Assembly: GCF_002995495.1 (NCBI RefSeq)
Contig: NZ_PVZV01000001.1
Location: forward strand, 744,001-808,000
From: Actinocorallia populi
Lineage (GTDB): Bacteria > Actinomycetota > Actinomycetes > Streptosporangiales > Streptosporangiaceae
Length of the DNA stretch: 64,000 nucleotides
Reading direction: 5' to 3'
The number at the start of each line of letters is the position of its first letter. Position 1 is the stretch's first letter. Shown here piece after piece: positions 44,464 to 53,156 of the stretch. The position numbers were made by a program, and so were the translations under genes. The notes below the pieces were generated by a model that was given only the letters and a program-made list of their open reading frames with translations, did no database searches and was not told where the DNA came from.

Positions 44464-45336
44464 TCAGGAGCCGGAGTGGACGACCGCCACGGGGCCCTGG
44501 GCCTGCTGGAGCACGGCGTGGCTGACCGAGCCCAGGCGCAGCCCGGAGAAGCCGCCGTGGCCGCGCGCCCCCACGACCAGCAGGGCCGCGCGCACGGTCG
44601 CGGCGGACAGCGCCTCGGTGGGCGTGCGGCCCTGGACGACCTGCTCGACGACGGGCACGGTCGGGTACTTCCGCTTCCACGGGGCCAGTGACTCGACGAG
44701 GAGCCGCATGCCCTCCTGGTCGACGGACACCTCGCTGTAGGAGGCCGGGCGCGCGGCGCGCGGCGCCGCCGAGTGCTCCCAGACGTGGAGGGCGCGCACC
44801 CCGGCCTGGCGCGTGGCCGCGGCCTCCAGCGCGAACCCGACGGCGTTCATGGAGGCCTCGGAGCCGTCCACCCCCACGACGACCTCGGCATGCCGGGGCT
44901 CGGGGTCGGTGTGATGGGGCACCACGACCACCGGGCAGGTGGCGTGCTCGGCCACCTGGCGGCTCACCGAGCCGAGCATGATGCCGCTGAAGGCGCCCGT
45001 CCCCCGGGAGGCGACCGCCAGGAGAACGGCGTCGTGCGCCTCCTCCAGCAGGGTGCGGGGCACGTGGCCGATGCCGAGGCGGGTGGAGACCTCCACCTCG
45101 GGCGCGCGCTCGCGGGCGCGCTCCTCGGCGAGTTCCAGGACGTGCAGGGCCGCGGCCTCGGGCCGGGCGGCGTCCAGGCCGGGTTCGGGCGGTGCTCCGG
45201 CGCTGTACTCCCAGCGCAGGGCGATGTGCACGATCCGCACCGGCGACCGCCGGTACCGCGCCTCGTCGACCGCCCAGTCCACGGCCTGCAGGGCTTCGGA
45301 CGAGCCGTCCACGCCCACCACGATGGGCCGAGTCAT
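44464..45336 (-). CDS. Universal stress protein with two Usp domains
   Basis: 290 aa from ATG 45336. Two tandem Usp modules each begin with the strand-D-G-S pattern (PIVVGVDGSSEALQAVDW and EVVVGVDGSEASMNAVGFA). The ATP-binding loops G-x2-G-x9-G-S are present (ASRGTGAFSGIMLGSVSRQ and ARGHGGFSGLRLGSVSHA). Such tandem proteins bind ATP and respond to stress or hypoxia. It is divergent from the kinase operon. Confidence 0.95.
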   Translation of the reverse strand: MTRPIVVGVDGSSEALQAVDWAVDEARYRRSPVRIVHIALRWEYSAGAPPEPGLDAARPEAAALHVLELAEERARERAPEVEVSTRLGIGHVPRTLLEEAHDAVLLAVASRGTGAFSGIMLGSVSRQVAEHATCPVVVVPHHTDPEPRHAEVVVGVDGSEASMNAVGFALEAAATRQAGVRALHVWEHSAAPRAARPASYSEVSVDQEGMRLLVESLAPWKRKYPTVPVVEQVVQGRTPTEALSAATVRAALLVVGARGHGGFSGLRLGSVSHAVLQQAQGPVAVVHSGS

Positions 45337-45463
45337 GTCCGCACCCCCGTCACTGCCGCCGGATGGCCTGGTTCCGTATCGAACCCCTACCCGTAACGCA
45401 GGGTTATCACCCTCTTTGGGGGAATTGTGATTACCGACCGTGATCTTGAATAGGATGCCTGGC

Positions 45464-47098
45464 GTGAAGGCGGAGGACGGCGGGAACAGGCTGGCGGGGC
45501 GGTACCTGCTGCTCGAGGCCCTGGGCAGCGGCGGCATGGGCACCGTCTGGCGGGCCAGGGACGAGACGCTCGGCCGCGAGGTGGCGGTCAAGGAGCTGCG
45601 GTTCGACGCCGAGTACGACGACGCCCTGCGCGAGGAGGCCCGCACCCGCGCGGTCCGCGAGGCCCAGGCCGCGGCGCGGCTCCGGCACCCCGGCATCATC
45701 ACGGTGCACGACGCCTTCCTCGAGGACGGCCGCCCGTGGATCGTCATGCAGCTCCTGGACGGGGCCTCCCTCGACAAGGTGCTGGAGCGGCAGGGCCCCC
45801 TGCCGCCCGAGCGGGTGGCCGGGATCGGCGCGGAGGTGCTGGCGGCGCTGGAGGCCGCGCACGCCGAGGGCGTCCTGCACCGCGACATCAAGCCCGCGAA
45901 CATCTTCCTGACCGCGAACGGCCGGGCGGTCCTCACCGACTTCGGCATCGCGACCGTCGAGGGCCAGGCGACGATCACCCGTTCCGGCATGCTGGTCGGC
46001 TCGCCCGGACACATCGCGCCGGAACGGCTGCGCGGCGAGAAGGCGGGCCCGCAGTCGGACCTGTGGTCGCTGGCCGGCACCCTCTACCGGCTGGTCGAGG
46101 GGCGCGCGCCGTTCCCCGGCGACAGCCACGTCGCGGTGCTGGCCGCGGTGCTCACCGGCGACCCCGTCCCGCCCGTCCGGGCCGGCGGGCTGGGCCCGCT
46201 GCTCGTCCACATGCTCGCCCGCGACCCCCTGGCCCGGCCCGATCCGTCCGTGGTCCGGCGGGCGCTGGAACGGGCCGCCGCCGGAGAGGCCACGGGGGAG
46301 ATCGCGCTTCCGGCCGCGCCGCCGCCGCGGGCGCCTTTCGAGGCGCCCACCGCCCCCGCCCCGGTGCGCAAGGCCGGGCGGAACCCGGGCCTGCTCCTGG
46401 CGGGCGCCGCGGTCGCGACCGCGGCGCTCGCGCTCACCGCCACCGTCGTGGTCGTGATGGACGAACGCTCCCCGGCCGTCGTGACGGGCGGCACGCCGAC
46501 GCCCTCCGGGACCTCGACACCGACCGCGCCCCCGGCGCCCGCCGTGCCCGGGAACGAGGCGAGGTTCACCGTGCCGGTGGACTTCTGCTCGCTGGTGCCG
46601 GTGGAACGGGTACGGGAGATCATCCCGAACTACCCCCGTGCCGAGGGCAAACCCTCTGGCGACTCCGGTGACGCGGCCTGCTCCTGGGACGCGCCCGGCT
46701 CGGGCGTCTCGGTGGAGGTCGAGTCGGGCTCCGAAGGCCGGGACCCCTGGTCGGGGACGTCGCCGAGCCAGGCCGGCGACGTCTACCGGTTCTGGCTCCG
46801 CGCCAGGACCGACGGAAGCGACAAGATCATCTGGCACTACGAGGGCATCGGCGGCGAGCGGATGACCTCCGGGCCGTCCACCAAGGCCGTGGAGGTGAAG
46901 GGCCTGGGCGAGGAGGCCTTCGTCTACGACGTCTACGGGCGGCTGGGTGCGCAGATGAGCAAGGTGTACGCCAGGATCAGCAATCTCGTCTTCCAGGTCA
47001 CCTACGCGGACGTGACGAACCAGAAGAGCAAGAAGAAGATCCGCCAGAACGCGCTGCAGATGGCGCGCTGGGTCGCCGAGGCACTGGACGAGAGCTGA
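45464..47098 (+). CDS. Transmembrane Ser/Thr protein kinase, active (gene 1 of 4)
   Basis: About 544 aa from GTG 45464; ATG 45455 is an alternative. All Hanks motifs are present: glycine loop GSGGMGTVW, ATP Lys K43 (VAVKE), HRDIKPAN (D141), DFG 159-161 and GSPGHIAPE. A Pro-rich linker leads to one membrane helix at about 309-331. An extracellular domain of about 190 aa starts near VDFCSLVPVERV and has a second Cys in AACSWDAP, resembling DUF3558-type lipoprotein domains. A signal outside the cell would thus regulate the kinase. It heads a four-gene series; the next gene starts 2 bases after its stop. Confidence 0.93.
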   Translation: MKAEDGGNRLAGRYLLLEALGSGGMGTVWRARDETLGREVAVKELRFDAEYDDALREEARTRAVREAQAAARLRHPGIITVHDAFLEDGRPWIVMQLLDGASLDKVLERQGPLPPERVAGIGAEVLAALEAAHAEGVLHRDIKPANIFLTANGRAVLTDFGIATVEGQATITRSGMLVGSPGHIAPERLRGEKAGPQSDLWSLAGTLYRLVEGRAPFPGDSHVAVLAAVLTGDPVPPVRAGGLGPLLVHMLARDPLARPDPSVVRRALERAAAGEATGEIALPAAPPPRAPFEAPTAPAPVRKAGRNPGLLLAGAAVATAALALTATVVVVMDERSPAVVTGGTPTPSGTSTPTAPPAPAVPGNEARFTVPVDFCSLVPVERVREIIPNYPRAEGKPSGDSGDAACSWDAPGSGVSVEVESGSEGRDPWSGTSPSQAGDVYRFWLRARTDGSDKIIWHYEGIGGERMTSGPSTKAVEVKGLGEEAFVYDVYGRLGAQMSKVYARISNLVFQVTYADVTNQKSKKKIRQNALQMARWVAEALDES

Positions 47099-47100
47099 CC

Positions 47101-48537
47101 GTGCAAGCGAAGATCGCCGGACGTTACGCCGTCCTCCACAGCCTGGGGACGCACCTTCACCTCGCCTACGACGAGCGGACGGGCGGCCAGGCGTTCCTGC
47201 GCGAAGTGCCTCTCCCGCCCGAACTGGCCGATGACGAGCGCAGCACACTGGCCGAACACGTCATCCGGGAGGCCGCGGCGGCGAGCCGCGTCCGGCATCC
47301 GGCCATCGTGCCCGTCCTCGACGCCGTCCTGCACGAGGGCAAGCCGTGGATCGTCACGCCACCGATCAACGGGCAACCGCTCACAGCCTGCTTCGGCGCG
47401 CTCTCCCCGCAGCAGACGGCCGCGCTCGGCGCGGACCTGGCCGGGGCCCTCAGCGCCGCGCACACGCTGGGAGTGCTGCACGGGGACGTGCAGCCGGCGA
47501 ACGTCTGGCTGACCCCGGACGGGCGGGGACTGCTCACCGGGTTCGGTACGGGGGTGTCCGCCCGCTCCCAGGCCGCCTCTTCGATCGGCACACCGGGTTT
47601 CGCCGCACCCGAGAAGACGACGAATCCGGTGCCGTCATCCGATCTGTGGTCACTCGGCGCGACCCTCTACCTCGCGGTCGAAGGCGTTCCGCCCTTTCCC
47701 GGAAACAGCCCTATGGAGGTGCTGAGCGCGGTGTTGTCGGCCGAGCCGCGCCCACCGGAGAAGGCGGGCGACCTCGGCCCCGTCCTGCTGGCGCTGCTGG
47801 CCAAGGACCCCGCGCAGCGGCCTGCCGAAGTCGAGGACGACCTCGTACGTCTCGCCCGTCCCGCCTCGGGTGAGAACAGGACGGTGGCGATGCGTCCGAG
47901 GACGTTCGCCCTGCTGGCCGCGTGCGCCGCGGTGGCGATCGCATCGGTGACGGCGACCGCCACGGCGCTGCTCACCGCACCGGAGGCCCCGGTGTCCTTC
48001 AAGAAACCCGCCACGGCCACTGATCCCGGCAAGTTCGGCACGTCTCCCCGCGCCTGCGATCTGCTCACCGACGCGCAGGCGGGAGAGCTCGTTCCGGACT
48101 TCGACCGGCAGGAGTACACGCCCTCAGGTCTGCCTCTGGGCGCCCAATGCACGCTCAGCAACGACAAACTGACGGTCAAGATCGAGCTCTCGCACTACAA
48201 GCCGGGCCCGCTCGGCGGCGGCCCCGAGACCGCTCGCGAGTTCCTGGCCGGTCTGAAGGCCGACGCCACCCGGGAAGGGTCGTCGAGCAGGACCGTCTCC
48301 CAGGTGCGAGATCTGCCGGAGGCGGGTGAGCAGGGCATCGCCTACAACGAGCAGCGGACGGACGGCTCCCGGTACATCGGGCATGCGGCGGTCGCCGTCA
48401 GCAACCTCGCCGCCACCATCGAGTGCGCCAAGGAGGACGTCGAGGAGGCGGAGAAGGACCGGGTCACGCAGGAGCTGGGCTCCTGTGCGGAGAAGACGGC
48501 GGGCTGGCTGGGCGAGTCGCTGAAGCGGACGGGATGA
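47101..48537 (+). CDS. Transmembrane pseudokinase with the same architecture (gene 2 of 4)
   Basis: 478 aa from GTG 47101. The kinase fold is clear (HPAIVPVLDAVLHEGKPWIV, SSDLWSLGATLYLAVEG) but catalytic residues are lost. There is no glycine loop (HSLGTHLHLAY). Arg34 stands where the ATP Lys should be (AFLREV). HRDxKPAN has become HGDVQPAN, and DFG has become GFG at 147-149. One membrane helix lies at about 268-292. The extracellular domain again begins with Cys (RACDLLTDAQAGELV) and carries three more Cys (AQCTLSND, IECAKEDV, GSCAEK). It probably acts as a regulatory partner of the flanking active kinases. Its stop overlaps the next start (ATGA). Confidence 0.9.
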   Translation: MQAKIAGRYAVLHSLGTHLHLAYDERTGGQAFLREVPLPPELADDERSTLAEHVIREAAAASRVRHPAIVPVLDAVLHEGKPWIVTPPINGQPLTACFGALSPQQTAALGADLAGALSAAHTLGVLHGDVQPANVWLTPDGRGLLTGFGTGVSARSQAASSIGTPGFAAPEKTTNPVPSSDLWSLGATLYLAVEGVPPFPGNSPMEVLSAVLSAEPRPPEKAGDLGPVLLALLAKDPAQRPAEVEDDLVRLARPASGENRTVAMRPRTFALLAACAAVAIASVTATATALLTAPEAPVSFKKPATATDPGKFGTSPRACDLLTDAQAGELVPDFDRQEYTPSGLPLGAQCTLSNDKLTVKIELSHYKPGPLGGGPETAREFLAGLKADATREGSSSRTVSQVRDLPEAGEQGIAYNEQRTDGSRYIGHAAVAVSNLAATIECAKEDVEEAEKDRVTQELGSCAEKTAGWLGESLKRTG

Positions 48538-49811
48538 ACCCGATGACGATACCGACGACACTGATGGGCCGTTACCGGCTGCTCCAGCCGCTGGACGAGG
48601 CACAGACCGCCTGGCGGGCGATGGACGAGCTGCTGCACCGCGACGTCATGGTGCGCAGGATCGCCGACGAGGAGCTGCCCGCCGTCCGTGCCGCGACGGC
48701 GCTGAGGCATTCCTCCGCCGTCATCGTCCACGACGTCGTCACCGAGGACGGCGGGGCATGGGCCGTCACCGAGCCGGTCGAGGCCTTCGAGACCGGAGGA
48801 GTCCTCTCCGAAGAGCAGGCCACCGAACTCGGCCTGGAACTGCTGGACGCGCTGACCACGGCACACGCGCTGGGCGTGGTGCACGGCGGCGTCCAGCCGT
48901 CGTCGGTCGTACGGTCCTCCGACGGGCGGGTCAAGCTCCTGGGATTCGGGATGAGCCGTCCGTACGGGGCTTACCTGCCGCCCGAAGCCGAACGGACCCC
49001 CGCCTCCGACCTGTGGGGGCTCGCCGCGACGCTCTCCACGCTGCTCGAAGGAAGGTCGCCGTACCCCACCGCGGAGGCGATCCGGTACGGGCAGGTCCTG
49101 CCTCCGATGCGCGCCCCCCGGCTCGGGGCGGTGCTGCTGCCACTGCTGAACCCGGACCCGACGGCCCGGCCCGGCGCGTCCGGGCTGCGCAGAGAGCTGA
49201 AAGCGTGCCTTCCGAAGCGACGGAAGGCCGGTGAGCCGTGGCGGTTCCGTCCGCTGGTGCTCGGGCTGATGGCCGCCGCTCTCGCCGTCGTGCTCGTGCC
49301 CGTAACGATCAGCCTGGTGAAACCGGATCCGCCGCAGGGGGCGACGAGGGACTTCACGAGCCTGCCCGACCCCTGCACCCTGCTGACCGGCGAGCAGGTG
49401 GAGCAGCTGGTCGTCACACCGAAGGAAGGGCAGCCGGGCGAGCAGGGCGTGTGCACCTGGAGCTCCGACGCAGGGCTGCCGAGCGCGCTGCGCTTCGATC
49501 TGCGGGTCGAGGTGGAGCTCAGCGACGACCCGCGCGGGAGGCTCGACGGGGAACGCAACACCATCGGGCTGCTCGCGTCGGCGGACTCGGTCCCCGGCCT
49601 GGGCGAGGAGGCTTTCCTGAAGAAGGAGGCGTTCCAGAGCTCGAGAGGGTCGGGATTCACGCGGATGACCGTGGCCTTCCGGATGGGCGACGCGGTGGGG
49701 ATCGTCGAGGTTCGGCGCAGCAGCAAAAGCGACGAAGCGGGTGAAGAGCGGGTGAAGAACGCCGCCCTCCGGGGCGCGTACTGGGTGGCAGAGGCGATGC
49801 ACCGTGGCTGA
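48534..49811 (+). CDS. Transmembrane pseudokinase, more degenerate (gene 3 of 4)
   Basis: 425 aa from ATG 48534, overlapping gene 2 as ATGA. The kinase-like fold is recognisable (RYRLLQPLDEAQTAWRAMDE, DLWGLAATLSTLLEGRSPYP). The Lys position is Arg41 (VMVRRI), the HRD motif is HGGVQPSS with its Asp gone, DFG is GFG at 137-139, and the APE and activation loop are shortened. One membrane helix lies at about 240-262. The extracellular domain has the same start as its neighbours: DPCTLLTGEQVEQLV with a second Cys in GVCTWSSD. Catalysis is not credible. The preserved fold and extracellular domain argue for a scaffolding or sensing role. Confidence 0.9.
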   Translation: MNPMTIPTTLMGRYRLLQPLDEAQTAWRAMDELLHRDVMVRRIADEELPAVRAATALRHSSAVIVHDVVTEDGGAWAVTEPVEAFETGGVLSEEQATELGLELLDALTTAHALGVVHGGVQPSSVVRSSDGRVKLLGFGMSRPYGAYLPPEAERTPASDLWGLAATLSTLLEGRSPYPTAEAIRYGQVLPPMRAPRLGAVLLPLLNPDPTARPGASGLRRELKACLPKRRKAGEPWRFRPLVLGLMAAALAVVLVPVTISLVKPDPPQGATRDFTSLPDPCTLLTGEQVEQLVVTPKEGQPGEQGVCTWSSDAGLPSALRFDLRVEVELSDDPRGRLDGERNTIGLLASADSVPGLGEEAFLKKEAFQSSRGSGFTRMTVAFRMGDAVGIVEVRRSSKSDEAGEERVKNAALRGAYWVAEAMHRG

Positions 49812-51351
49812 GGGAACGCTGCTGGCCGGACGGTACCGGCTGGAGAGCCGCCTCGGACAGGGCGGCATGGCCGACGTCTGGCGGGCGCGGGACGAGTTCC
49901 TCGGCCGGACCGTCGCGGTCAAGGAGGTGCGGCTGCCGTCCGGGCTCGACGCCGGGCAGCGCGCCGACTTCTGCGAACGCCTCCTGCGGGAGGCGCGCGC
50001 CGCCGCGGCACTGCCCCACCCGTCCATCATCACGGTGCACGACGTGCTCCAGGCCGGCGACCGGCCGTGGATCGTGATGGACCTCATCAACGGGCCGTCC
50101 CTGGAGCACGTCCGGGTCGAACGGGGTCCGCTGCCGCCCGAACGCGTCGCCGAGATCGGCCTGCAACTGCTGGAAGCACTGTGCCTGGCGCACGAACGCG
50201 GCATCCTGCACCGGGACGTGAAGCCGGCGAACGTCCTGCTCAGCGGGGACCGGGCGATCCTCACCGACTTCGGCATCGCCACACTCTCCGGCGACCACCG
50301 GCTGACCTCGGCCGAGGGGATCATCGGCTCGCCCGGTTACATGGCGCCCGAACGGCTCCAGGACGGGCACGGCGCGGGACCTTCGTCCGACCTGTGGTCC
50401 CTCGGCGCGACCCTGTACGCGCTCGTCGAGGGCCGCCGCCCGTTCGAGAAGCCCAACGCACTGGCGATGCTCGGGGCCGTCCTGACCGAGGACGTGCCGC
50501 CTCCTCGGCTGGCCGGTCCGGTGCTCGGGCCCGTGCTCACGGCGATGATGGACCGCCACCCGCACCAGAGGCCGGTGCCCGCGGAGATCCGGCGCGCCTT
50601 CGAGACGGTGGCGGGAGTGACCCCGTCCGTCATGCCGCGTCCTCCTTCGGTCTTTCCCGGCGGCCCTCCGGTTTTTCCCGGGGACGCTCCGACCGTTCCG
50701 GGGACGCCGCCTCCACCGCGACGGGGAGGGCTGCTGTTCGCCGGAGCTGGAGGCCTGGTCGTCGTGCTGCTGGCCGTCGCGGGGTATCTCCTCTTCCGGC
50801 CGGACGCGTCCCGGCAGGAAAAGGAACCCCCTTCGCCGCCTGTCGCCGTACCTTCCGCGAGCTTCACCGCAGTGCCCGACGATCCCTGCACGCTGCTCAC
50901 CTCCGAGCAGTCGGAAGGGCTGGTGGGCTCCTCCTCCGGCAGTCCCAAGGACTCCGTCACCTGCGTCTGGAGCGCCAGTGAGGGCAGGCTCCAGATCAAG
51001 GCGCGGTTCCTGGAACCGCGGGGGGACAAGTCCGGGGAGGAACTCGCCAGGGACACCTTCGCACTCCTCAAGCGGCAGGCCACGGGCTCTTCGGGGATCG
51101 GCGCCGATCCCGCCGTCACCGCCGTGGACTCCGCTCCCCGCGACCTGCCGGGCCTGGGAGACGAGGCCTTCACGAAGGAGTCCACCGTGAGCGGCTCGTT
51201 CGCCGGTGCCGCGTCCTTCGTCCAGGTGCGCTCCGGAAGGCTCCTGCTGGAGATCGAGTACCACCTGAGCGGGGTGTCGGAGGTGTCGGCGACCATGCGG
51301 AGCACTCCGGAGCGTGCCGCGCGCCAGGTCCTGGAGAACCTCGGGGCCTGA
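49804..51351 (+). CDS. Transmembrane Ser/Thr protein kinase, active (gene 4 of 4)
   Basis: 515 aa from GTG 49804, overlapping gene 3 by 8 bases. It has the complete motif set: GQGGMADVW, K40 (VAVKE), HRDVKPAN (D138), DFG 155-157 and GSPGYMAPE. A Pro-rich linker with PPSVFPGGPPVFPGD precedes the membrane helix at about 309-331. The extracellular domain begins DPCTLLTSEQSEGLV and has a second Cys in VTCVWSASEG, matching the domains of genes 1-3. The four genes therefore look like one duplicated family that kept kinase activity only at the ends. A sigma-factor gene follows. Confidence 0.93.
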   Translation: MAEGTLLAGRYRLESRLGQGGMADVWRARDEFLGRTVAVKEVRLPSGLDAGQRADFCERLLREARAAAALPHPSIITVHDVLQAGDRPWIVMDLINGPSLEHVRVERGPLPPERVAEIGLQLLEALCLAHERGILHRDVKPANVLLSGDRAILTDFGIATLSGDHRLTSAEGIIGSPGYMAPERLQDGHGAGPSSDLWSLGATLYALVEGRRPFEKPNALAMLGAVLTEDVPPPRLAGPVLGPVLTAMMDRHPHQRPVPAEIRRAFETVAGVTPSVMPRPPSVFPGGPPVFPGDAPTVPGTPPPPRRGGLLFAGAGGLVVVLLAVAGYLLFRPDASRQEKEPPSPPVAVPSASFTAVPDDPCTLLTSEQSEGLVGSSSGSPKDSVTCVWSASEGRLQIKARFLEPRGDKSGEELARDTFALLKRQATGSSGIGADPAVTAVDSAPRDLPGLGDEAFTKESTVSGSFAGAASFVQVRSGRLLLEIEYHLSGVSEVSATMRSTPERAARQVLENLGA

Positions 51352-51459: not shown

Positions 51460-51957
51460 GTGATCACCGAGGCGTCACCCGCGCTGCCCGCGTTCTACCG
51501 CGAGCACCAGACGGGGCTGGTCCGGCTGGCGATGATGCTCGTCGGTGACGAGGCGACCGCCGAAGACGTGGTCCAGGACGTGTTCGTCCGGCTCCACCGG
51601 AACACGCCGTCGTTGCGGGATGAGCAGAAACTCCTCGCCTACGTGCGTTCCGCGGTGCTCAACGGCTGCCGGTCGGTGCTGCGCCGCCGGAAACTCATCC
51701 GCCGGCACGCCGAACGGTACGAGCCCCCGGCCTGGTCGGCGGAGTCGCAGGCGATGCTCGGGGAGGACCACCGCGAGGTGATGCGCGCCCTGCACCGGCT
51801 GCCTCGGCGGCAGCGGGAGGTGCTGGTGCTGCGGTTCTACGCCGACCTGCCGGACGAGGAGATCGCCACGACACTGCGGATCCGCCCCTCCACCGTCCGC
51901 TCCACCATGTCCCGGGCCCTGTCCGCCCTCGAACGAGAACTGGGGGACGCCTCATGA
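51460..51957 (+). CDS. ECF-type sigma factor
   Basis: 165 aa from GTG 51460 (ITEASPALPAFYREHQ), with GGAG 6 bases upstream. Region 2 is LVRLAMMLVGDEATAEDVVQ, then DVFVRLHRN. Region 4 is LHRLPRRQREVLVLRFYADL, then EIATTLRIRPSTVRSTMSRA. Its stop overlaps the start of the next gene (ATGA), which encodes a membrane protein likely to control it. Its position right after the kinase series suggests it could be a phosphorylation-linked output; that is only inference. Confidence 0.92.
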   Translation: MITEASPALPAFYREHQTGLVRLAMMLVGDEATAEDVVQDVFVRLHRNTPSLRDEQKLLAYVRSAVLNGCRSVLRRRKLIRRHAERYEPPAWSAESQAMLGEDHREVMRALHRLPRRQREVLVLRFYADLPDEEIATTLRIRPSTVRSTMSRALSALERELGDAS

Positions 51958-53156
51958 ACGTCGAAGACCGGCTCAAGGCGGCCCTCCAGGGGACCGCGAA
52001 ACTGGTGGAGGACCGGCCGCGGCCACTGCCCGCCGCTCCCCGCAGGCAGGGACTCCCGCGGTTCATGCCCGCCTGGGCGGCCCTCGTCGTCGCCCTCGTC
52101 GTGCTGGGACCGTTCGTCCTGCCGGACGGAGAACCCGACGCGCCGATCCCGATGAGCTCGCCGAGCCTCGCCATCGGGACGGCACCGGAGGTCTACGTGG
52201 CGGTCTATGGCGCAACGGAGAACCGGAAATCCCGCTTCGAGATTCGTTCGACCGCCACAGGAGAGCTACGGCAGATCAATGAGGCGGGCAACGGGGAGAG
52301 CTTCGTGTCCATCGCCGCCATCCCGGATGACGGGGGGAAGGAGGGTAACTCCTTCTACCTTCTGACCCGCCTGGGCGCAGGCACCCAACCCAGATGTACG
52401 CAATACACGGTCTACCGCATCCAGATCTCAACCGATGGCAATTTCAGCAGTTGGGGAACGAACTCCATCACGTTCGAGGCGTTGGATGGCACGCCCGCGA
52501 ACCTGGCGACCAACTCGAAGGGCGACCAGATCGCCTACTCGTATGAGGGTTGCGGCCGGAAGGTGAGGGAGGGAGGCATTGAAACCCACATCGGTGATGG
52601 CCTGTCCGGAGAGCAGCGGATCGCCCACCATTGGGCGGGGACCACTACGAGCTGGTACGCGGACAAGCTGGTACGGAACCTCGCTTACTCCCCGGACGGG
52701 CGGACGTTGGCGGCCTTCCTGCAGTCCCGCGACGCCAAGGACGGAGGGGCGCCCAGCGCGCAACTCCGGTTTACCAACGTGGGGAATCCTCATTCGGGCT
52801 TCACCGACGAGAGGGAGAACGAAATCGCGTTGGGGGCCGATAATGGTTTCGGCCTGGTCAACGCGATGTTCTCTCCCGATGGAAAGAGGATCGTCGCGCT
52901 GCGGAGCGAGTCACGGCAGTTCGTCAGGGAGTACAAGGTCACAGGGCTTCCCCTGCCCCGCGCCGGAGGAGGGCCCCGCTCTCTGGGTTCTCTGAAGCTG
53001 TCTGTCGATCACCCCGCGAATCTGCACGTTCTGATGGAGCAGCATCCGTCAAGCGAGGCACTGCTCTTTCAGGTCGGAGACACGACATTCCTGCATATCG
53101 GGCAGCAGAGCCACATCATCGCGATAGGCGAAGCGCCTTCGGACCTCGCCTGGTGA
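51954..53156 (+). CDS. Membrane-anchored propeller-like partner of the sigma factor
   Basis: 400 aa. A short cytoplasmic N-terminus (MNVEDRLKAALQGTAKLVED) precedes one membrane helix (AWAALVVALVVLGPFVL, about 40-57). An extracellular part of about 340 aa has propeller-like repeats (VRNLAYSPDGRTLAAFLQSR, then VNAMFSPDGKRIVALRSES). The N-terminal helix starting NVEDRLKAAL is typical of proteins encoded with sigma factors that bind them at the membrane. An anti-sigma role is inferred. Part of the coding sequence (about 52200-52900) is less GC-rich than its neighbours. Confidence 0.82.
   Translation: MNVEDRLKAALQGTAKLVEDRPRPLPAAPRRQGLPRFMPAWAALVVALVVLGPFVLPDGEPDAPIPMSSPSLAIGTAPEVYVAVYGATENRKSRFEIRSTATGELRQINEAGNGESFVSIAAIPDDGGKEGNSFYLLTRLGAGTQPRCTQYTVYRIQISTDGNFSSWGTNSITFEALDGTPANLATNSKGDQIAYSYEGCGRKVREGGIETHIGDGLSGEQRIAHHWAGTTTSWYADKLVRNLAYSPDGRTLAAFLQSRDAKDGGAPSAQLRFTNVGNPHSGFTDERENEIALGADNGFGLVNAMFSPDGKRIVALRSESRQFVREYKVTGLPLPRAGGGPRSLGSLKLSVDHPANLHVLMEQHPSSEALLFQVGDTTFLHIGQQSHIIAIGEAPSDLAW

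Follow-up and report, generated by a model that had tools for sequence, protein, structure and literature searches.

Four consecutive genes of Actinocorallia populi, here named G1 to G4, probably encode a single hetero-oligomeric membrane receptor kinase composed of two catalytic and two non-catalytic receptor subunits. The genes lie in the analysed window, a stretch of 64,000 nucleotides (contig NZ_PVZV01000001.1, positions 744,001 to 808,000) from a genome of 8.25 Mb, and their coordinates are given in Table 1. The reading draws on the conservation of the gene set, the loss of catalytic residues, purifying selection, the residues of a dimer face and a cassette-like exchange of one ectodomain in relatives; from these we infer that the products assemble into a complex, that activation is allosteric, that there is a ligand, in which direction the signal runs and that the relatives are a fair guide to the window species. 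In the proposed mechanism, subunits 1 and 4 would supply catalysis and convert binding into phosphorylation, and subunits 2 and 3 would be non-catalytic components of the receptor, retained chiefly for their extracellular domains. The individual kinds of protein, namely receptor kinases, PknH-like sensors and pseudokinases of actinobacteria, are already known; pseudokinases in general are common in bacteria, with mostly unknown roles (PMC12599244). What appears new is a conserved operon that combines active and dead paralogues and in which a pseudokinase bears an exchangeable ectodomain, an arrangement not described in the open-licence papers searched.

Two active kinases and two pseudokinases

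All four proteins have an N-terminal kinase domain, followed by a single helix of strong hydrophobicity and, beyond it, an ectodomain of some 160-210 residues. Each ectodomain contains the motif C-[SDT]-L-[LV]-[TP] and a second cysteine, which belongs to a C-x-W motif in three of the proteins (G1, G3 and G4) and to CTL in G2. The genes are tightly packed, with a gap of 2 bases between G1 and G2 and overlaps of 4 bases (ATGA) between G2 and G3 and 8 bases between G3 and G4. This common layout and spacing agreed with a first-pass annotation of the DNA, which had also deduced that the products are made in a fixed ratio; translational coupling is plausible from the overlaps, but a fixed protein ratio does not follow from them.

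G1 and G4 possess the beta-3 Lys, HRD Asp and DFG Asp of an active Hanks-type kinase, with the intact motifs VAVK/HRDIK/DFG and VAVK/HRDVK/DFG, respectively, as well as the alpha-C Glu, and matched the profile PF00069 with E-values of 7.6e-45 and 2.8e-43. G2 and G3 also matched PF00069 above the cut-off (E 7.6e-21 for G2), and both are pseudokinases in the sense that at least one of the three residues is gone from a kinase fold. In G2, Arg replaces the Lys (AFLR), the HRD and DFG motifs read HGDVQ and GFG, the glycine loop is deleted and the alpha-C Glu is kept. G3 likewise has Arg for Lys (VMVR) and GFG, together with HGGVQ, a substitution of the alpha-C Glu by Val and a deletion of the activation segment. 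Motif reading thus reproduced the earlier assignment of G1 and G4 as intact and G2 and G3 as degraded, with the damage to the glycine loop, alpha-C Glu and activation segment coming in addition. As HGD and the alpha-C Glu are kept in G2, residual nucleotide binding by this protein is possible.

The catalytic losses in G2 and G3 are not due to chance, because 24 other kinases in the fetched loci all kept both Asp residues and 23 of them kept the Lys, the remaining one being truncated at the end of its locus. The cluster in the same-genus genome G001 (locus L039) was likewise ordered active-dead-dead-active and carried substitutions of the same types.

Distribution and gene order in relatives

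The profile of the G2 ectodomain detected 34 strong orthologues (E < 1e-57) in 12 genera among 299 sampled Streptosporangiaceae genomes. Among the genomes sampled outside this family, the G1 ectodomain gave only weak matches (E ~1e-9 to 1e-11), all in one other family. Carriers of the cluster included Streptosporangium, Planomonospora, Planobispora, Microtetraspora and Thermocatellispora. The fetched clusters were sorted by ectodomain class (c1-c4), and in the ectodomain tree c1, c2 and c4 formed groups with support of 97, 91 and 94, respectively, c3 being unresolved. The kinase-domain tree broadly agreed with the ectodomain tree and showed long branches for the pseudokinases.

The constant elements across the clusters were the four membrane helices and the four ectodomain classes, and the kinase domains varied. 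A hetero-oligomeric receptor, as suggested in the first-pass annotation, would fit such a co-inherited set. The active-dead-dead-active order, which had been put forward as a possible conserved synteny, held within the window genus (c1-c2-c3-c4) and not beyond it; elsewhere the order was c1-c2-c4-c3, usually active1-dead2-active4-dead3.

Four further loci (L041, L043, L046 and L057) carried related two-kinase clusters, composed of c1 and a c4-like gene that were both active, followed by a third open reading frame, the product of which has a similar ectodomain but lacks a kinase domain.

Purifying selection on the dead kinase domains

The two pseudokinase genes could be the decaying relics of a tandem duplication, a view consistent with the damage to every catalytic motif and with the loss or truncation of c3 in a few genomes. 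The reading frames of G2 and G3, however, contained neither a frameshift nor an internal stop, the frames were open in the 34 genomes of 12 genera, and the same substitutions occurred in two species of the window genus. The ratio of nonsynonymous to synonymous substitution rates (dN/dS) was then compared among the classes for close pairs. The median values for the kinase parts were 0.35 for c1, 0.42 for c2, 0.37 for c3 and 0.27 for c4; they were obtained by the Nei-Gojobori method, which is biased at this G+C content, and serve for comparison between classes only. The dead kinase domains are thus constrained nearly as strongly as the active ones (0.37-0.42 versus 0.27-0.35). The ectodomains gave 0.45, 0.51, 0.75 and 0.71 for c1 to c4, where the c3 value refers to pairs of the same ectodomain type, because ectodomains of different c3 types are not allelic copies of each other, and some values computed between them cannot be read as rates.

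Between the window and G001, a pair too divergent for absolute dN/dS values, the dead kinase domains of G2 and G3 were 64% and 59% identical and their ectodomains 45% and 33%. Pseudogenisation of G2 and G3 was rejected on the basis of the open frames and the constraint, and decay is hardly credible as an explanation; the dead members have been maintained over a long period in at least twelve genera. The earlier view that the pseudokinases are under selection was upheld, as the frameshifts and dN/dS near 1 that it had named as contrary signs did not appear in relatives.

Kinase domains gained different fates in each class

The catalytic residues were kept in all 32 c4 kinases, and c1 retained the Lys in 31, the HRD Asp in 32 and the DFG Asp in 33 of 34 sequences. 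In c3, the Lys and the DFG Asp were each found in one of 30 sequences and the alpha-C Glu and HRD Asp in none, the activation segment was usually lost, and the kinase domain was wholly absent in the g4 clusters L119-L122 and L124. The c2 kinase carried all motifs in g4-type and g78 clusters of two genera (L053, L117-L122 and L124); in the window genus it had both lobes but was dead. The N-lobe was absent in 28 of the 30 c2 proteins having any kinase part, and four more, from two genera (L113-L116), had no kinase domain at all. In the c2 C-lobe, HGD was mostly kept and the APE Glu was present in 29/30.

These states of c2 indicate that the kinase at one orthologous position passed through active, dead, halved and absent forms, and that the helix and ectodomain stayed. 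At a single receptor position, the clusters thereby offer a natural series of states (active kinase, bilobal pseudokinase, half-kinase and no kinase), with active partners encoded alongside. Because kinase-less subunits persist in these operons (c2 in L113-L116; c3 in L119-L122 and L124), the membrane-anchored ectodomain must have its own function.

The repeated loss of the N-lobe or the whole kinase domain from c2, the absence of the domain from c3 in the g4 clusters, and the definition of the set by ectodomain classes rather than kinase states would all suit dead subunits that are ectodomain carriers only. The kinase remnant would then be a topology anchor or stable base with no regulatory role, and ligand-driven clustering of the ectodomains alone would activate subunits 1 and 4. 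We consider this somewhat unlikely, as what is left of the kinase evolves under constraint (dN/dS 0.37-0.42), the window genus conserves the dead kinase parts better than the ectodomains, and c3 keeps the dimer face described below.

In two N-lobe-less c2 proteins (L049, 7605-10145; L040, 9145-10749), the C-lobe was separated from the helix by a very long cytoplasmic linker rich in Pro and Gly. In L107 and L112, c1 was also dead (VAVRE, HRG), and the cluster there was without any active kinase.

The third subunit retains an N-lobe dimer face

Three contact residues of the PknB N-lobe (back-to-back) dimer, R10, L33 and D76, were followed across the classes. Their equivalents were kept almost without exception in c3 (R 30/30, L 29/30, D 30/30), being R13, L34 and D67 in G3, and were kept in all c1 (34/34) and c4 (32/32) sequences. 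G2 of the window has R, T and D at these positions, with Thr in place of L33. The residues are conserved in most active kinases too, and the argument lies in their survival where catalysis has been lost. N-lobe dimerisation activates PknD and PknB (PMC3601408), and the dimer of the MviN pseudokinase is made by the matching residues L750 and D793 (PMC12599244). With its intact PknB-type N-lobe face, c3 may, we infer, pair with c1 or c4 and switch the active subunit allosterically.

The first-pass annotation had proposed that the pseudokinase fold gates the active kinases. Such gating is plausible for G3, because the dimer-face residues were kept while the catalytic residues were lost. For G2 it cannot hold in general: of the orthologues with any kinase part, 28/30 are without the N-lobe, and a further four have no kinase domain at all.

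Pairing could also serve inhibition, the pseudokinases holding paired active subunits off until ligand binds or acting as decoys that compete for substrates, and the kept N-lobe face of c3 and the kept C-lobe of c2, with its HGD and APE Glu, are compatible with this. Sequence does not separate activation from inhibition, but the N-lobe pairing of PknB and PknD activates (PMC3601408), and an inhibitory or decoy role seems unlikely to us. The operon series makes it possible to test directly whether active kinases are regulated by bacterial pseudokinases via the N-lobe face.

Cassette-like exchange of the c3 ectodomain

In 19 genomes of Streptosporangium, Planomonospora and Planobispora, the c3 ectodomain occurred as four types with ~25-35% identity between types, and most of the attached pseudokinase parts were >70% identical. 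Types 1 and 4 were each present in all three genera. On the tree of the remaining operon, the type changed 8 times across the 19 genomes, against a mean of 8.0 for shuffled labels, and a single clade for type 4 was rejected (approximately unbiased test, p-AU 1.5e-5). Exchange of the ectodomain on a constant pseudokinase was seen in the pairs L094/L097, L095/L102, L101/L104 and L091/L092. The nucleotide identity in L101/L104 and L091/L092 was ~0.9 in the pseudokinase, ~0.5 across ~600 bp of the ectodomain and mostly 0.8-0.97 downstream; in other pairs, the sequence downstream of the c3 ectodomain differed as well. The ectodomains of c1 and c2 followed the backbone, exchange being mainly confined to c3. 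In same-type c3 pairs, the synonymous divergence (dS) was higher in the ectodomain (0.58) than in the kinase part (0.42), and this suggests that the types are old and were not recently imported. No silent reservoir or second copy of another c3 ectodomain type was found in the 12 genomes tested.

In these related genera, the outer domain of subunit 3 moved between lineages and the cytoplasmic part stayed constant, so this subunit most likely bears variable recognition, whether of a ligand, a neighbour or a phage. Subunit 3 is the best candidate for both the variable recognition part and the allosteric partner, and subunit 2 would be mainly an ectodomain subunit. Ligand sensing by the pseudokinases, another part of the earlier proposal, receives indirect support from the swapping of the G3-class ectodomain together with the PknH-sensor-like fold predicted for the G1 ectodomain. 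More tentatively, the operon may specify a multi-subunit receptor kinase in which the pseudokinase subunit is an exchangeable recognition module. Several old ectodomain types would be common to genera via recombination, as in self-recognition or immune-type loci, and the constant allosteric pseudokinase would switch the conserved active partners. Cassette exchange of a single subunit's ectodomain suggests that filamentous soil bacteria possess a polymorphic recognition receptor, a kind of receptor likewise not described in the open-licence literature searched.

The variability could instead reflect escape from phages that attach to the receptor, the operon being an ordinary signalling one and the c3 ectodomain merely an exposed target. 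The c3 types are random on the species tree, and the high dN/dS of the c3 and c4 ectodomains (0.75 and 0.71) is expected for any surface target under diversifying selection. Exchange nevertheless affected mainly one of four similar ectodomains, those of c1 and c2 tracking the backbone, and phage escape is in our judgement improbable.

Several points weigh against a receptor of four subunits with c3 as its variable, allosteric part. The orthology of the window c3 to the other c3 genes is the weakest link, given that c3 was unresolved in the ectodomain tree. Swapping was seen in three other genera only, the window genus being represented by just two clusters. The c3 type did not covary with residues of the other ectodomains, so that specific contacts between ectodomains are unsupported, and c2 cannot use the N-lobe interface in most genera. 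The full set is also not essential everywhere, because Planomonospora sp. ID82291 (L107) and P. parontospora (L112) hold just c1 and c2, with c3 and c4 gone, and of two Streptosporangium genomes one is without c3 (L098) and the other has an internally deleted remnant of it (L100, 5645-6126).

In several close pairs, L093/L099 among them, the dS of the c4 ectodomain was 2-4 times that of the kinase part (e.g. 0.53 versus 0.11), which hints at an exchange of divergent alleles at c4 too.

Ectodomain structure and comparison with known kinases

The G1 ectodomain had no PDB match at the sequence level. Its predicted structure (36 sequences, mean predicted local distance difference test score, pLDDT, of 84) found the extracellular domain of M. 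tuberculosis PknH (4ESQ) as the best Foldseek match, with an E-value of 1.6e-4, a probability of 1.00, a moderate template modelling (TM) score of 0.47 and 8% identity; the next matches were TiME, PsbP and EagT6. The model of G3 showed a bilobal kinase fold closest to PknB (TM 0.63-0.72 by target), and the elements of its ectodomain came in the same order as those of G1. The PknH sensor domain is characterised by two intramolecular disulfides and a ligand cleft. In the ectodomains studied here, the Cys pair of the C-x-L and C-x-W motifs was near-universal, and both residues were lost together from the c3 ectodomains of L097 and L108, a pattern that a disulfide would produce. A second ectodomain Cys pair was seen in G2 and in its orthologue from G001. 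An assignment of the ectodomains to DUF3558 (PF12079), as first envisaged, was not borne out by the profile search, in which all four matched in the region of the first Cys with scores (32.1, 19.0, 24.3 and 26.5) below the gathering score of 34.1.

PknH-type kinases of M. tuberculosis share the layout of a cytoplasmic Hanks kinase, one helix and a globular ectodomain; in a review, PknH is treated as a stand-alone receptor and not as part of a multi-kinase operon (PMC3601408). The c3 proteins resemble MviN/ActPs3 (PMC12599244) in their three degraded catalytic motifs, activation-loop deletion, helix C-terminal to the domain and kept dimer-face residues, and G3 displays the degraded motifs, deletion and C-terminal helix of ActPs3. 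Unlike MviN, c3 carries a sensor ectodomain and adjoins active paralogues, and its closest solved relatives are the active PknB and PknA. Membership of c3 in the MviN group was unsupported, as MviN did not rank among the 60 best PDB matches obtained with the c3 profile, the first being PknB. ActPs2 (PMC12599244) is similar to G2 and G3 in having Arg for the beta-3 Lys and a helix after the kinase domain, but has Asn in HRD and an activation-loop insertion of ~250 residues. G2 and G3 were not assigned to it, as they have HGD and HGG, respectively, and no insertion, with a deletion in G3. The kinase domains of G1 and G4 belong to the same lineage as those of the Stk1/PknB PASTA kinases (NF033483). 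An identity of G1 and G4 as PASTA kinases was dismissed, since they have no PASTA repeats and the NF033483 match (240 and 225 bits versus a cut-off of 450) was confined to the kinase domain.

Features and surroundings of the cluster

Table 1. Genes and ectodomains of the receptor kinase cluster (positions in the window)
Feature	Position	Strand	Remarks
G1 (class c1), active receptor Ser/Thr kinase	45464..47098	+	544 aa; helix ~314-332; DUF3558/PknH-like ectodomain
G2 (class c2), pseudokinase	47101..48537	+	478 aa; helix ~269-287; two further C-terminal Cys in ectodomain
G3 (class c3), pseudokinase	48534..49811	+	425 aa; ectodomain class exchanged among species of related genera
G4 (class c4), active receptor Ser/Thr kinase	49804..51351	+	515 aa; catalytic residues intact
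G1 ectodomain	46550..47095	+	model mean pLDDT 84; nearest solved fold PknH sensor 4ESQ
G3 ectodomain	49311..49808	+	33% identity to same-genus orthologue; pseudokinase part 59%

Conserved partner genes in the neighbourhood were considered and rejected. A gene for a SigE-family extracytoplasmic function (ECF) sigma factor (51460-51957) is located just downstream of the cluster in the window and is not beside the cluster in G001, and in other genera SURF1/DUF3817 genes and a two-component pair were found. A two-domain universal stress protein is encoded divergently from G1 (44464-45345, - strand). The ECF sigma factor gene is overlapped by a further gene (51954-53156), the product of which has one hydrophobic stretch and weak WD40-like matches.

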